A stretch of 64,000 bases of DNA, taken from contig JAIUNM010000005.1 in assembly GCA_020162035.1 (NCBI GenBank), positions 1-64,000 on the forward strand, written 5' to 3'. The position numbers were made by a program, and so were the translations under genes. The notes under the pieces were generated by a model. The model made no database searches. It was not told the DNA's origin and saw only the letters and a program-made list of their open reading frames with translations. This document shows positions 35,667 through 42,071 of the stretch, piece after piece. Position 1 is the first letter of the stretch. Each line of letters starts with the position of its first letter. Origin of the DNA: Bacteroidota bacterium (GTDB taxonomy: Bacteria > Bacteroidota > Bacteroidia > B-17B0 > Aurantibacillaceae).

Positions 35667-37065
35667 GTTTACATTTGCTTGGTTAATTATTTTTCCATTT
35701 TTTGTTTTAAGTCAAAACAACTGGACCTTGCAACAATGTATTAAACACGCATTAAATAATAACATAAGCTTAAAACAACAAGTACTTTCAACAGAAATTA
35801 ATAAAAATAACACCTTACAAAGTAAGGCTAACGTATTACCAAATATTAATTTAGGAGCTGCTCATACATATAATTTTGGGCAAACAATAGATAGATTTAC
35901 AAACACCTTTGCAAACACAATGGTTTTATCTCAAAATTTTTATGGTAGTACAAATGTTTTATTATGGAATGGGCTTTCGCAATACAATAACATTAAAGCT
36001 AATGAATTTAATTATTTAAGTTCTGTAGAAAACTTAAAGCAAACACAAAACGACATATCATTATCTGTTGCTAATGCGTTTATTAATTTAGCTTTTGCAG
36101 AAGAATTAATAAAAATATCAGAAAACCAATTAAACTTAAGTAAAGAACAATTGGAAAGAACTAAAAAATTAATTACAGCAGGGAGTTTAGCAAAAAGTTA
36201 CGAATTTGATTTGTTAGCCCAAGTAGCAACCGATGAAAGTAATAATGTTAACTATACAAATAACTATCAAATTGCTAAATTAAATTTAATGCAAATTATG
36301 AATTTAGATAGTAGTTTAAATTTTGAAATATCCTTACCTAAGTTTGAAATTAATGAAAATAACATACTTACAAATGATGTAAATTCTATTTATGAAGCCG
36401 CACTTAAAAATCAACCTAACATAAAAGGTGCAACATATCAAACTCAAAGTGCAGAAAAAAATTTATTGGCGGCTAAAGGTAGAGTTAGTCCAAGTATTAA
36501 TTTAAGCGGAAGTATAGGCACAGGTTATTCTGGCTTAGCAAAAGAAATTACAAGCGTAAATTCTGGCACTCAAACTATAGGCATAACAACAGGTGGCGAT
36601 TTTGTAATTGGGCCAACTTATGAGCCAAATTACAGAAATAAAAGTTTTTCTGATCAATTTAAAGATAATGTAAACAAAAGTATAGGAGTAAGCATTAATG
36701 TGCCAGTTTTTAATGGCTTACAAACACACACAGCTATACAAAACGCAAAAATTAATGCATTAAACTCTAAACTAAATAGCGATTTGGTTAAACAAAATTT
36801 ATATAAAACAATAGTTCAAGCCCACACAAACGCAAAAGCAGCATTAAAAAAATATTTAGCAAATCAATCTAACTTAAATGCAGCTAACGAAAGCTTTAAG
36901 TTTGTACAACAAAAATTTGATGCTGGCACATTAAATGCTTTTGATTATAGTAATGCTAAAAACAGAGTTTTTGTAGCCGAAAGTAATTTATTACAAGCTA
37001 AATTTGATTACATTTTTAAACTAAAAGTGTTAGATTTTTATCAGGGTAAAGAACTAACTTTATAA
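35659..37065 (+). CDS. TolC family outer membrane channel protein
   Basis: A 468-residue outer membrane efflux protein. A signal peptide (FKFTFAWLIIFPFFVLSQ) is followed by the TolC opening WTLQQCIKHALNNNISLKQQ and paired long helices. Repeated halves are visible: EKNLLAAKGRVSPSINLSGS in the first and FVQQKFDAGTLNAFDYSNAK near the end. It may export small molecules or, by position, take part in surface polysaccharide or type I export, but no membrane fusion or inner membrane pump gene is adjacent, so the partner is unknown. It overlaps the upstream transferase gene by eight bases and runs 25 bases into the end of the convergent gene. Confidence 0.9.
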   Translation: MFKFTFAWLIIFPFFVLSQNNWTLQQCIKHALNNNISLKQQVLSTEINKNNTLQSKANVLPNINLGAAHTYNFGQTIDRFTNTFANTMVLSQNFYGSTNVLLWNGLSQYNNIKANEFNYLSSVENLKQTQNDISLSVANAFINLAFAEELIKISENQLNLSKEQLERTKKLITAGSLAKSYEFDLLAQVATDESNNVNYTNNYQIAKLNLMQIMNLDSSLNFEISLPKFEINENNILTNDVNSIYEAALKNQPNIKGATYQTQSAEKNLLAAKGRVSPSINLSGSIGTGYSGLAKEITSVNSGTQTIGITTGGDFVIGPTYEPNYRNKSFSDQFKDNVNKSIGVSINVPVFNGLQTHTAIQNAKINALNSKLNSDLVKQNLYKTIVQAHTNAKAALKKYLANQSNLNAANESFKFVQQKFDAGTLNAFDYSNAKNRVFVAESNLLQAKFDYIFKLKVLDFYQGKELTL

Positions 37066-37853
37066 TCAAAAAAATATTTTTTTAACACACTGTTGTAATT
37101 AGATTTACACTTTTTATTTAATTTTTCTTGTTTTTTTAAATACTCTTTATTAGTTAGCTTGATTTGTCCAACGTAAAATTTTAACCCAAAATTTAATCCC
37201 CAACTTAATGCGTTTAAGTATAAATTGTTCTGTATTAAGCTATAAATTCCAAAAACAGAACCTCCAACTAATGCCAAGCTAGTTAATCCTTTAAGAGGCT
37301 TACCCATGGCTATTAATCCACTACCAGGAACAATGCCACTAGTAATCATATAACCTTTTCCCTTTTTGTATTTATTATTAATTAATTTATAAAAACAATT
37401 TAAACAAGCTAAATTTGAATCTAGCTTAATTAATTTTTGATAATAATATTTTGCCTGAGTTGAATCGTAATTTACATAAGTTAAATAGCCTAATAAGTTT
37501 GAATTAAGACTTAAACTATCAAAATTTAGTTTGTAAATATTAAAGTTTTGAGTTGCAGATGTAAAGTTAAAATTGTCTAAGCAAATTAATGTATTATTCC
37601 AATAATAATCTTCTTTTTTAATTCTAAAATTTCTTTTTTCTAATCTTAAGTATGATTGATAAGCGTTTTGATAGTTTTTTATTTTTAATGCGTATTCATA
37701 TTTATAAAACAATATACAATCTTGTTGAGCAGTGTTTCTTGTAAAGAATAGTTGCTTTTCAAATAGCAATAAACTATCTACCTTATTTGTTTGTGCAAAC
37801 GAACAAATATTACTTAAAACTAAAATAATCGTTATAAAATAAATTCGCTTCAT
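37041..37853 (-). CDS. Exported membrane protein with C-terminal PGxG membrane domain, last gene of the exported-YidD operon
   Basis: A 270-residue protein with a signal peptide (MKRIYFITIILVLSNICSFAQ), a helical middle that reads like degenerate TPR repeats (YKYEYALKIKNYQNAYQSYL, NTLICLDNFNFTSATQNFNI), and a hydrophobic C-terminal domain: SGIVPGSGLIAMGKPLKGL, LALVGGSVFGIYSL, NALSWGLNFGLKFYVGQIKL. The 'PGsG....GKp.kGl' hairpin is like that of small TM2/DUF5683-type membrane domains and is shared with the neighbour at 37810. The start lies inside the end of that neighbour (44-base overlap). The end overlaps the tolC-like gene by 25 bases on the other strand. Function unknown. Confidence 0.7.
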   Translation of the reverse strand: MKRIYFITIILVLSNICSFAQTNKVDSLLLFEKQLFFTRNTAQQDCILFYKYEYALKIKNYQNAYQSYLRLEKRNFRIKKEDYYWNNTLICLDNFNFTSATQNFNIYKLNFDSLSLNSNLLGYLTYVNYDSTQAKYYYQKLIKLDSNLACLNCFYKLINNKYKKGKGYMITSGIVPGSGLIAMGKPLKGLTSLALVGGSVFGIYSLIQNNLYLNALSWGLNFGLKFYVGQIKLTNKEYLKKQEKLNKKCKSNYNSVLKKYFFDYKVSSLP

Positions 37854-38595
37854 TAAAATAGGTTAGTTTTTTTTCTTTCTTCATTATTTTTGTTTCGTTA
37901 AACGAACCATAAATGTTAGAGATATAAAATAATCCGCCAAAACTCATCATAAAAATTGAATAAGAGTTTTTAATTCCAAATTTTTTAATAGATTCGGCTG
38001 TTTGTAAGCCATATCCAGCAATTGAAATAAAATTTACTAAAAACAATTTTGGCTTACCGTTATACCACCTTCCTAAACCTGGAACTAGAGTTGATAACAA
38101 AGCCGCTTTAATTGGTTTTTTTGAATTAGTTTTTATTAGCGAAACATAATTGTTTTTATACTTATCCATTGTTGCGCTATCGCTTATGTAATTTAACTTA
38201 CTCCTTTTAATTACAGTTAAAATTTCTTTATCGCAATATGAAATTGGCGTTTTTAGTACAGAATCAAACCAATTGTAAAAATATTTATGTTTATTTTCTT
38301 TTAGCCAATATTTGCTTAATTCGCAACGTAATAAAGTGTCGTTTAAAAAATTAAATTTTTTGTTTTGAATTTTATAAACAGAATCAGGTTTGTTAGTAAA
38401 CACATAATAATCTAATAGAATAAGATTTAAAGTATCGTTATTGGTTTTAATTGAATTAATGTATAAATAATACTCTGTTTTAAGGTTGTTTTCCTTTAAA
38501 TGTTTAATAAAATCAAAATTTACTTGTGATTTTAAATTGTAAACACAAATCAAAAAAAATAAAATTATTAATTTATTTTTTAAGGTAATGTTCAT
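37810..38595 (-). CDS. Exported membrane protein with PGLGxxYxGK motif, paralogous to the next gene
   Basis: A 261-residue protein. It has an N-terminal signal (NITLKNKLIILFFLICVYNL, then KSQ), a long Lys/Asn/Tyr-rich helical region, and a C-terminal membrane part beginning KAALLSTLVPGLGRWYNGK, then LFLVNFISIAGYGLQ and YSIFMMSFGGLFYISNIYGS. The same order, exported helical part then 'S..vPG.G....GKp', is seen in the gene at 37041, so the two are probably related by duplication. It overlaps the YidD-like gene before it by 23 bases. I know similar pairs beside yidD in Bacteroidota only as hypothetical proteins. Function unknown. Confidence 0.7.
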   Translation of the reverse strand: MNITLKNKLIILFFLICVYNLKSQVNFDFIKHLKENNLKTEYYLYINSIKTNNDTLNLILLDYYVFTNKPDSVYKIQNKKFNFLNDTLLRCELSKYWLKENKHKYFYNWFDSVLKTPISYCDKEILTVIKRSKLNYISDSATMDKYKNNYVSLIKTNSKKPIKAALLSTLVPGLGRWYNGKPKLFLVNFISIAGYGLQTAESIKKFGIKNSYSIFMMSFGGLFYISNIYGSFNETKIMKKEKKLTYFNEANLFYNDYFSFK

Positions 38596-38980
38596 TAATA
38601 ATTAAATTAGTTGATGTTATAAAGTACGGATTTGTATCTTCTATTGCAAAAGGAACACAGCTTAGTAGTTGATTTAAGCCTATAAAAGTTCCTTTTAAAA
38701 AACCATAATTATGAATACATTGTTTTGTAAACTCGCTACAGCTAATTTGATAAGAACAACTAGCCTGAATTTGTTCACTTATTATGTTTTGATAGATAAA
38801 TAAAGCCCCGGTTCCCAAATAACCTACAGGATTATATACGAGCTTTGGTTTAACAAATTTTTTTGTTTTAATTGTTGGCTTTTCATAAAACAAACTGTCA
38901 ATAAATTTTGAGTTTTGTGCTCTGTTAAATAAAGGCAAACATAAAATTCCTATTAAAACTATTTCTCTTAGTTTATTCAT
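38573..38980 (-). CDS. YidD-like protein with an N-terminal signal peptide
   Basis: A 135-residue protein. Residues about 55-112 match YidD, the small protein thought to help YidC insert membrane proteins: CSYQISCSEFTKQCIHNYGF then LKGTFIGLNQLLSCVPF, with cysteines placed as in the family ('C.f.ptCSeY....i...G..kG......rl.rC.P'), although the usual arginines are replaced. Normal YidD is a cytoplasmic-face amphipathic protein of 70-80 residues without a signal. Here a clear signal sequence (MNKLREIVLIGILCLPLFNR, then AQ) and a 30-residue spacer come first, so this form should be exported. It follows the radical SAM gene by four bases and overlaps the next gene by 23. Confidence 0.75.
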   Translation of the reverse strand: MNKLREIVLIGILCLPLFNRAQNSKFIDSLFYEKPTIKTKKFVKPKLVYNPVGYLGTGALFIYQNIISEQIQASCSYQISCSEFTKQCIHNYGFLKGTFIGLNQLLSCVPFAIEDTNPYFITSTNLIINEHYLKK

Positions 38981-38984
38981 ATAA

Positions 38985-39941
38985 TTAATCTGCCCATACT
39001 TTAGTTCCTTCAGTGCAATTTTTACAAATATCTATTTCGCTTCTGCTTTTTAAAATCTGTTGTCTAAATTTAATATAAGGTTCACTTTTCCAAATAGTTT
39101 TAAAATTGGAGTTTAATAAATTACCAACCTGGTATTTTGCGTCTTTATCAAAGCAACAAGGCACAATTTTTCCATCCCATGTAATTACGCAAGCAATCCA
39201 CATGCGCCAACATTGATTTAATAATTTGTTTTTAATTTGATATTTCCCGTTTTTTAAAATATATCTTGCATATTTTTGATTTTGTGGAACTAAATCATGT
39301 GCATTTTCGAAATCATAAATTTGTGCCGTTTTTATAGTTAATTCATCTACTCCATATTCAAGTGCTAGTTTTTGAACATCTTTAATTTGATGTTCGTTGT
39401 TTTTAAAAACTACAAATTGCCAAACAATCCATAAATGTTTAGCTTTTAATCTTTTTTTTGCTAACACAATTTGTTTAGTTCCTTCTAAAACTTTAATTAA
39501 ATTTCCACCAACTCTGTAGTTTTCATAAGTTTGTTGTGTTGTTCCATCAATAGATATTATTAATTTATTTAGCCCACTATTTACAATCTCATTAGATACT
39601 TGTTCATTAATGTAATGTGCGTTAGTGCTAGTAATTGTGTATAAATTTATAGAATTGGCATATTTTACCATTTTTAAAAAATCGGGGTTTAAAAAAGGTT
39701 CGCCTTGAAAATAAAAAACAATACTAAATAAATGTTTTTTAAATTGGTTAATTTGATTTTTAAACACAGTTTCGTTTAACATTCCAATTGGTCTTGTAAA
39801 CGATCGTAAACCGCTTGGGCATTGAGTACACCTTAAATTGCAACTTGTTGTAGGCTCAAAACTAATTGAAGTGGGTAAACCATACAAAATGGGTTTTTTA
39901 AAAATTTTTGACAAATGAAAACTTACAAATAATTTAGCCAT
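38985..39941 (-). CDS. Radical SAM/SPASM domain protein
   Basis: A 318-residue enzyme starting at the ATG at 39941; the GTG at 40022 would run into the divergent gene. The radical SAM cluster motif CNLRCTQC (CxxxCxxC) follows GLPTSISFEPTTS near residue 36. FYFQGEPFLNPDFLKMVKYA is the GGEP-like SAM-binding strand. The C-terminal SPASM region has further cysteines: NQCWRMWIACVITWDGKIVP, CCFDKDAKYQVGNLL, and IDICKNCTEG. SPASM proteins often modify peptides or carry extra Fe-S clusters. The substrate is unknown; the small exported proteins coded downstream are possible substrates or partners, but that is speculation. Confidence 0.88.
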   Translation of the reverse strand: MAKLFVSFHLSKIFKKPILYGLPTSISFEPTTSCNLRCTQCPSGLRSFTRPIGMLNETVFKNQINQFKKHLFSIVFYFQGEPFLNPDFLKMVKYANSINLYTITSTNAHYINEQVSNEIVNSGLNKLIISIDGTTQQTYENYRVGGNLIKVLEGTKQIVLAKKRLKAKHLWIVWQFVVFKNNEHQIKDVQKLALEYGVDELTIKTAQIYDFENAHDLVPQNQKYARYILKNGKYQIKNKLLNQCWRMWIACVITWDGKIVPCCFDKDAKYQVGNLLNSNFKTIWKSEPYIKFRQQILKSRSEIDICKNCTEGTKVWAD

Positions 39942-40041
39942 ATTTAAAAGCTTATTAAAGCTTAACTTTTTAAAAATATGTATATAATACTGTAACAAAA
40001 TTTGTGTTTTATAAATATACACTTAAATAAAATAATCTGTT

Positions 40042-40049
40042 TATTTTTA
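40042..40049 (+). promoter_or_regulatory. Promoter -7 box of the Ig-like lipoprotein gene
   Basis: TATTTTTA, with the expected start point about three bases before the ATG at 40056. This supports the ATG at 40056 over the GTG at 40002. Confidence 0.45.
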
Positions 40050-40055
40050 CAAAAA

Positions 40056-41690
40056 ATGAACTGGTTTAAAATAAAATACTACTTGTGCTTTTTATTAAGC
40101 ATACTTTTGCTTGGATGTGCACAAGTTGTTCCATTAACAGGGGGTAAAAAAGATATAACTGCTCCAAAAGTTTTAAGTACAATACCGTTAAACCAATCTT
40201 TAAATTTTAATGGTGATAATATTGTTCTAAAATTCGATGAATTTGTTCAATTTAAAGACGCAAATAACGAATTTATAATTTCGCCTAACTTAAAAACAAA
40301 ACCAACAATACAAAGTATTGGAAAATCTATACTAATTAATTTAAACAAAGATGAGCTGTTAAAAAACACAACGTATAAACTATATTTTGGAAGCTCAATT
40401 AAGGATATGCATGAAAGCAATCCTTTAAAAGATTACGAATATGTTTTTTCTACGGGTAATGTTATAGATACTTTAAAACAAACTGGCCAACTATTTAACG
40501 CCTTAACTAAAGAATCTGAAACAGAAATGATTGTTGGTTTGTATGATTTAAATTCGTTTAATGATAGTACAATTTATAAAACAACTCCTTTATATTATTG
40601 TAAAACTAACTCATCTGGTAATTTTAATTTTAGTTATTTACCAAATTCAACATTTAAATTAGTTGCTTTTACAGATAAAAATAAAAATCTTGTTTATGAA
40701 CCAGAAGTAGAAAAACTTGCTTTTTATAATGAAAATGTAACTCCAGGGAAAGATTCTAACATTGTTTTGTACTCTTTTAATGAAACGCCACAAAAAACAT
40801 ACATTAAAAAAATTAATGTTATAAATAGCGGTAAAGCTATTATTACATTTAATAAACCAATTACACCAAAAGTATATTCTTTAAATTCTAAGGTTAAATT
40901 TTATAGTACAACAACAACAAAACCAAAATCAGACTCATTATTTATTTACACATGGCCATATATTGACACTTTAAGCTTTAATATAATAGACGATACTTTT
41001 AATTTTAATGATACAATAAAAATTATATATCCAAAATCGAATAAAAAAAATATAAAATTTCCAATTACAACTAACCTCAACAATAAACTTTTGCCTATAG
41101 AAACAAATCTTACTTTAACATTTCCACAAGCCATAGATACTCTTAATTCGAAGACAAATCAAATTTTAGTTTACGAAAAAACAGACAGTTTAAAATCAAA
41201 AAAGGAGTTTAAAACAGAATATGTTAATGGAAACACTTTGAAAATAAAAACCAACTTTATTGAAGGTAAAGAGTATTTTTTAAACATTGACACCAATATT
41301 TTTATAAATTATAATGGAAATTATAACGATTCACTTATTCAAACATTTAAATTACAAACCAAAACAAGTTTAGGAAGCATTAAATTAAATTTTCTATTAA
41401 ATAAAAAACAAAACTATTTAATTCAATTAATCTCTCCTCAATCCAATGTTTATAGGCAATATGGCATTTCATATGCATTAAGTGAAAGCAATGAAAAAAC
41501 AATTTATTTTAAAAATATTATGCCAGGAACTTATAAAATACGAATTGTTTTTGATGATGATAACAATAATGAATGGTCATCTGGTAATTACTTAAAACAA
41601 ATTCAACCTGAAAGAATAGAAATTTTTGAAAAAGAATTAAAAGTAATTTCTGATTGGGAAATTGAAGAAGATATTATAATTAAAAAATAA
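40056..41690 (+). CDS. Ig-like (Big_5/SbsA type) domain lipoprotein
   Basis: A 544-residue lipoprotein. The signal ends in LLGCAQVVPLTGGKKD, with cysteine as acylation site; 'C..v..ptGG.kD..pP.v..s.P' is the usual opening of this Bacteroidota family. The first domain is the SbsA Ig-like fold: NIVLKFDEFVQFKDANNEFI, ISPNLKTKP, TYKLYFGSSIKD. A middle part has GNFNFSYLPNSTFKLVAFTD, a carboxypeptidase-regulatory-like piece, and the end is a further beta domain (MPGTYKIRIVFDDDNNNEWS, SGNYLKQIQPERI). It is probably a periplasm-facing or surface lipoprotein; function unknown. It is divergent from the radical SAM operon, with about 115 bases between starts. Confidence 0.85.
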   Translation: MNWFKIKYYLCFLLSILLLGCAQVVPLTGGKKDITAPKVLSTIPLNQSLNFNGDNIVLKFDEFVQFKDANNEFIISPNLKTKPTIQSIGKSILINLNKDELLKNTTYKLYFGSSIKDMHESNPLKDYEYVFSTGNVIDTLKQTGQLFNALTKESETEMIVGLYDLNSFNDSTIYKTTPLYYCKTNSSGNFNFSYLPNSTFKLVAFTDKNKNLVYEPEVEKLAFYNENVTPGKDSNIVLYSFNETPQKTYIKKINVINSGKAIITFNKPITPKVYSLNSKVKFYSTTTTKPKSDSLFIYTWPYIDTLSFNIIDDTFNFNDTIKIIYPKSNKKNIKFPITTNLNNKLLPIETNLTLTFPQAIDTLNSKTNQILVYEKTDSLKSKKEFKTEYVNGNTLKIKTNFIEGKEYFLNIDTNIFINYNGNYNDSLIQTFKLQTKTSLGSIKLNFLLNKKQNYLIQLISPQSNVYRQYGISYALSESNEKTIYFKNIMPGTYKIRIVFDDDNNNEWSSGNYLKQIQPERIEIFEKELKVISDWEIEEDIIIKK

Positions 41691-41921: not shown

Positions 41922-42071
41922 ATGGCAAAAAAAGCAACAGCAAAAAAAGCAGCTCCTAAAAAAGCAGCTAAAAAAGCAGTAAAAAAAGCAGCTCCTAAAA
42001 AAGCAGCTAAAAAAGCAGCTAAAAAAGCAGCTCCTAAAAAAGCAGCTAAAAAAGCAGCTAAAAAGAAGTAA
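41922..42071 (+). CDS. Histone H1-like Lys/Ala-repeat mini-protein
   Basis: A 49-residue protein made almost wholly of Lys, Ala and Pro: MAKKATAKKAAPKKAAKKA, then repeats of the KKAAPKKAAKKA unit, ending AAKKK. It has no hydrophobic core and must be disordered and strongly positive, like the tails of bacterial histone H1-like proteins (Hc1, AlgP, HupS tails), so DNA or RNA binding is likely. The opposite strand has a longer open frame of Cys/Phe repeats, which is only the antisense of this repeat. A strong terminator follows four bases after the stop, supporting a real gene. The sequence resembles the THX tail at 27690. Confidence 0.75.
   Translation: MAKKATAKKAAPKKAAKKAVKKAAPKKAAKKAAKKAAPKKAAKKAAKKK
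41925..42068 (+). repeat. Short tandem repeat coding for KKAAPKKAA units
   Basis: Units such as AAAAAAGCAGCTCCT and AAAAAAGCAGCTAAA recur in a 9- to 15-base rhythm over the whole gene, with few third-base changes, so copy number could change by slippage. Confidence 0.8.

Follow-up and report, generated by a model that had tools for sequence, protein, structure and literature searches.

A putative envelope module built on an exported YidD homologue and paired PGxG proteins in Bacteroidota and other phyla

Results

The window, by which we mean the full 64,000-nucleotide stretch of DNA that was analysed, lies on contig C5 of a 3.17-Mb Bacteroidota genome (G000). From position 40022 down to 37041, the minus strand carries a tight run of genes for a radical SAM/SPASM enzyme (rSAM), Y, A and B, in that order (Table 1). 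Here, Y designates an exported YidD homologue, and A and B designate two PGxG paralogues; L and M, which are met in other genomes, stand for a LolA-fold protein and a TM2 protein, respectively. The coordinates confirmed the packing originally described for these four genes, with a gap of 4 nt between rSAM and Y and overlaps of 23 nt (Y/A) and 44 nt (A/B). Promoter and terminator scans gave matches at chance level only. Elsewhere in the window, positions 41922-42071 (plus strand) encode a 49-aa lysine/alanine-rich, histone H1-like protein with AKKAAPKKA repeats.

Table 1. Features of the Y-A-B locus and its neighbours, in window coordinates
Feature	Position	Strand	Basis or remark
Y, exported YidD homologue, 135 aa	38573..38980	-	Pfam and TIGR00278 matches; one exported clade
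Y segments			signal peptide about aa 1-21; spacer to aa 50; YidD core aa 59-115
Y, predicted signal peptide MNKLREIVLIGILCLPLFNRAQ	38915..38980	-	sequence, family statistics, model helix aa 3-22
Y, YidD core	38636..38806	-	helices aa 51-71, 81-92 and 94-107 in structure model
Y, invariant Cys	Cys75 38756-38758; Cys81 38738-38740; Cys108 38657-38659	-	family alignment
A, 261 aa: signal peptide, helical TPR-like part, PGLG hairpin region	37810..38595	-	family alignment
A, PGLG motif, aa 172-175, within S..vPG.G..Y.GK	38071..38082	-	family alignment
B, paralogue of A, 270 aa: signal peptide, helical part, PGSG hairpin region	37041..37853	-
B, PGSG motif, aa 176-179	37317..37328	-	family alignment
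Radical SAM/SPASM protein; neighbour, outside the system	38985..40022	-	GTG start; ATG at 39941
Big_5 (Ig-like) protein, divergent; outside the system, conserved rSAM neighbour	40002..41690	+

When Y was searched with profile models of YidD, its core (residues 59-115 of 135) exceeded the curated cut-offs of both Pfam PF01809 (E 5.6e-13; 48.9 bits against a cut-off of 27) and NCBI TIGR00278 (51.5 bits; cut-off 40), which bore out the initial annotation of the protein as a YidD homologue. In a structure model of Y (pLDDT 85), the signal forms a helix that a spacer separates from a small helical core. A fold search of this model against the PDB gave no significant match, and a sequence search for a YidD structure found none.

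Canonical YidD is a cytoplasmic, membrane-bound protein, and Y had been noted as unusual in bearing a signal peptide. This feature was assessed through shuffled-sequence statistics on the family, in which 128 exported YidDs were compared with 38 canonical ones. A small-x-small-Q cleavage-like motif followed the hydrophobic stretch in 97 of the 128 exported proteins (19.5 expected on shuffling), compared with 0/38 canonical proteins. Moreover, the first core Cys lay at a median residue of 82 in the exported YidDs versus 24.5 in the canonical ones, and the n-region was net-positive in 117/128 of the former; a simple regex signal test did not separate the two groups. The cleavage-motif counts upheld the view that this YidD bears an export signal. 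In Y itself, the sequence indicates that the signal peptide is probably cut between A and Q (aa 21/22), and the positive-inside rule would place the core in the periplasm whether the segment is cleaved or retained as an N-in anchor.

In a tree based on only 90 columns, the exported YidDs formed one side of a branch (support 99/99) against the 38 canonical YidDs. Three Cys were invariant in a 50-sequence alignment of the exported proteins. Most of the canonical set of motifs (C-R-[FY]-x-P-[ST]-C-S, R.RCHP and DPVP) is gone from the exported clade, with the cysteines and part of the pattern remaining: C-R and C(H/N)P were each found in 3/128 exported versus 38/38 canonical YidDs, and DPVP (or a DPVP-like motif) in 10/128 versus 37/38. 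The CR, HP and DPVP motifs that Y has lost may matter for canonical YidD function. Taken together, Y is like the YidD of E. coli (TIGR00278/PF01809) in its core sequence, its three cysteines and its passing of the NCBI equivalog cut-off, but unlike it in having a predicted export signal and a spacer, in belonging to a separate clade, in its lost motifs and in being a second copy alongside a normal YidD. E. coli YidD assists YidC/Sec-dependent insertion (cited in PMC8082313 and PMC3573977); the export signal argues against Y assisting the insertion of inner-membrane proteins from the cytoplasmic side.

The window genome contains three YidDs, namely a canonical 70-aa protein, the window Y, and another long YidD whose gene lies about 72 kb off, likewise on C5. 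Y-A-B is correspondingly present twice. The second unit (L004:8056-11440; C5 about 110055-113439) comprises Y, a 477-aa protein, A and B, with no rSAM, and we therefore regard the unit as Y-A-B with variable company. The 477-aa protein resembles an alpha-toroid by eye and has no Pfam match. Many of 60 close relatives likewise carry a second, long YidD, and in 27/27 of their loci with a long YidD the order was Y-A-B, nearly always with overlapping genes. One further relative's locus (L035) holds a short, 71-aa extra YidD with neither A nor B.

This association was also examined in 296 genomes across Bacteroidota. At least two YidDs were found in 42 of these, and the 33 genomes in which A was matched strongly (E <= 1e-12, detection being bounded by the first-pass sensitivity of the search) were without exception among those with at least two (Fisher p 7e-36, uncorrected for relatedness). 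In the nine genomes with an extra YidD and no A, eight of the extra copies had no export signal, and the ninth was a below-cut-off fragment containing a stop. Four loci (L184-L187, in G262, G083, G140 and G151) hold extra short YidDs that lack a signal, sit in a fixed small neighbourhood and form a separate side branch of YidD; a 76-87-aa 'MEYKV.PFVASI' protein is encoded directly upstream of the short YidD.

A search of genome contigs with the window YidD as single query gave no match, and the A profile recovered 353 loci, the best 80 of which include, by record title, Bacteroidota, Balneolales, Cloacimonadota, WOR-3 and Poribacteria. Among the carriers are cultured species, for example Arcicella rosea (L163), Siphonobacter aquaeclarae (L116) and Emticicia aquatilis (L137). 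In the 128 loci analysed, Y lay directly upstream of A in 118 (median gap -4 nt), a minimum count, as the Y genes of L118 and L167 are present though skipped by ORF picking; B lay downstream of A in 117. These counts support the original grouping of an exported YidD with the PGxG pair. In Poribacteria the arrangement was L-Y-A, with B not recognised. A natural Y-A fusion occurs in L074 and a degenerate one in L145. Some rumen Bacteroidales retain A-B with Y degenerate or absent, which indicates that Y can be lost, and several Bacteroidales keep L-A-B, with just a short N-terminal extension on A. The combined data leave us in little doubt that Y-A-B is the core of an exported envelope module.

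Two variations on this arrangement were also seen. In four Bacteroidales-type MAGs (L114, L115, L145 and L150), Y has lost its cysteines and is either decayed or absorbed into the N-terminal end of A, and M, L, A and B are still present. Three genomes (G018, G025 and G014; L043, L046 and L054) each have two Y-A-B units about 4-11 kb apart; in L043 and L046 the two units differ in subtype, one having L upstream and the other lying beside a 255-aa HTH-like gene.

The suggestion that the two PGxG proteins are duplicates was substantiated by profile-profile comparison, in which A and B proved homologous with a probability of 99.2% over 254 columns. P172 and G175 were invariant among 22 sequences of the A family, as were P176, G177 and G179 among 22 sequences of the B family. 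The A profile matched TPR structures (E 5.6e-7). Protein A itself matched DUF5683 (PF18935) weakly, at E 0.007 and 16.8 bits, below the gathering score of 26.7. A and B share with DUF5683 the PG.G..Y.G hairpin motif of their C-terminal region, but unlike DUF5683 they add a TPR-like part. At the threshold used, one hydrophobic segment besides the signal was found in B and none in A, which gives no firm prediction of membrane insertion for the two proteins.

A LolA-like gene, L, was located just upstream in 69 of the 128 loci, across several phyla. Its structure model (pLDDT 93) matched P. aeruginosa LolA in Foldseek (E 1.6e-11, probability 1.00) and other structures of the LolA superfamily, among them P. 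gingivalis LolA3 and LolB, and the L profile also found P. aeruginosa LolA by sequence (E 6.8e-4). LolA carries lipoproteins. L has the superfamily fold of the Lol system (LolA/LolB, the Bacteroidota LolA2/LolB2, and LolA3), but unlike LolA it is distant (11% identity), linked to Y-A-B and missing from the window genome, in which the L model found no match. No LolCDE gene was noticed near the module. An adjoining L was absent from 59/128 loci, so L is not obligatory; the window and most deep-branching Bacteroidota matches are among the 59. In loci of the deep-branching families f37/f55 (L062, L063, L065, L067-L073 and others), where there is no L at Y-A-B, the unit is often flanked on one side by an acyl-CoA dehydrogenase gene and on the other by an ACT-domain-like gene.

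M consists of a signal peptide and a TM2 domain (PF05154, E 3e-15, passing the Pfam cut-off), and a TM2-type gene was nearby in 46/128 loci. The window genome has one M-like TM2 protein, encoded on another contig. M shares its domain with TM2 families at large, but differs from them in bearing a signal and a conserved C-terminal N.KFFMW and in its linkage to Y-A-B in many relatives. Like Y, the proteins A, B and L carry signals. Directly after B, five loci of one branch (L037, L040, L041, L042 and L117) have a signal-bearing WD40-type beta-propeller gene, a further partner restricted to one lineage.

The rSAM protein has radical SAM (E 3.4e-11) and SPASM (E 2.8e-17) domains, and PADLOC gave it a viperin-type match, as expected of a radical SAM protein. 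It had been taken as the head of the set, a proposal that was not borne out. The gene was present in 57/60 relatives, as a single match in each bar one exception. It mostly lay elsewhere in the genome (380 kb from Y-A-B in G007), and genomes that lack Y-A-B have it too; just three genomes, all related, have it ahead of Y, namely those of the window, G036 and G014. In contrast to the peptide-maturation clusters of radical SAM/SPASM enzymes, in which the enzyme is conserved with partner genes, such conservation was not found for rSAM and Y-A-B. A divergent Ig-like gene adjoined rSAM in 12/12 rSAM loci read. As rSAM is near-universal, mostly unlinked and has this conserved neighbour of its own, we regard it as an incidental operon neighbour and reject it as a pathway member. 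The tight coupling of the initial annotation is thus upheld for Y-A-B as a conserved unit and unsupported for rSAM; the usual partners of Y-A-B are L and M.

Discussion

No description of the exported YidD clade or of the Y-A-B module was found in the open-access literature, and NCBIfam holds nothing for exported YidD beyond the generic name. The component families are known, and there is a substantial chance that the system is wholly new. Under curated models, Y would receive the name 'membrane protein insertion efficiency factor YidD' and A and B would have none; this generic label hides a conserved multi-gene envelope system and probably misassigns the function of Y. The biochemistry of canonical YidD is poorly understood, and a clade that acts from the opposite face of the membrane, and in which fusion to a partner protein sometimes occurs, offers a route to whatever the YidD core binds. 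Flavobacterium johnsoniae is viable when it has no LolA or LolB at all, and its surface lipoproteins are localised nonetheless (PMC11885536), so further envelope routes may exist in this phylum; if our interpretation is right, the module might be such a route for lipoproteins or membrane proteins.

That the genes for an exported YidD, a LolA-fold carrier, TPR/PGxG proteins and a TM2 protein are linked suggests a complex that faces the periplasm and serves in delivery or insertion. The best explanation overall, to which we assign a probability of roughly 40%, is that Y-A-B is an exported, periplasm-facing module that delivers or integrates hydrophobic cargo, and that [M]-L-Y-A-B is an undescribed envelope-trafficking machine of Bacteroidota, Balneolales, Cloacimonadota, WOR-3 and Poribacteria. 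Somewhat less probable is a specific mechanism for it. Y, A and B would act on the periplasmic side, where A and B, through their TPR-like part and PGxG hairpin region, would form a membrane platform; Y would dock hydrophobic cargo or help its integration from that side; and L, where present, would shield the cargo, which might be a lipoprotein, a small membrane protein such as M, or a lipid. The window lineage would then retain a minimal Y-A-B, in two copies and with no LolA-like gene of this type. The main weakness of this mechanism is that several lineages have Y but no L, and a few have A-B but no full Y.

A competing and plausible, if less probable, explanation is that Y, A, B and M form a structural envelope complex without transport, such as a sensor or scaffold, in which Y caps A and is stabilised by disulfides or metal. 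The Y-A fusion, the three invariant Cys of the export clade, the TPR and TM2-like parts and the lack of L from about half of the loci all suit such a complex, but it does not readily explain why, in 69 loci of several phyla, the gene immediately upstream encodes a LolA-fold carrier. It is less likely again that the delivery module moves a lipid, glycolipid or pigment, not protein, with L as the lipid carrier. The LolA2/LolB2 of Flavobacterium, which lie in flexirubin loci, have been proposed to carry the pigment or its precursors (PMC11885536), and the gene inserted in the second Y-A-B unit of the window genome, toroid-like by eye, is possibly terpene-cyclase-like; however, no genes for lipid or pigment synthesis were seen to recur beside the module.

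The remaining alternatives are far less credible. The YidD family was formerly called a haemolytic domain (PMC3573977), and Y might accordingly be secreted as a haemolysin-like toxin, for which A and B would provide export or immunity; this is improbable given the phylum-wide conservation, the fixed operon and the fusion to a partner protein, and Y, A and B had no match to PHROGs or to any model in an anti-phage defence search with PADLOC. Modification by rSAM of a product handled by Y, A and B, which the position of rSAM 4 nt from Y in the window and its close linkage to the unit in two related genomes would favour, is scarcely credible for an enzyme that is mostly far off in relatives, occurs without Y-A-B and is missing from the second unit of the window genome. 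Equally hard to credit is an uncleaved N-terminal anchor that holds the YidD core of Y in the cytoplasm, where canonical YidD resides, since the cleavage-like motif is confined to the exported proteins, their n-regions are nearly all net-positive, and the partners A, B and L bear signals too.
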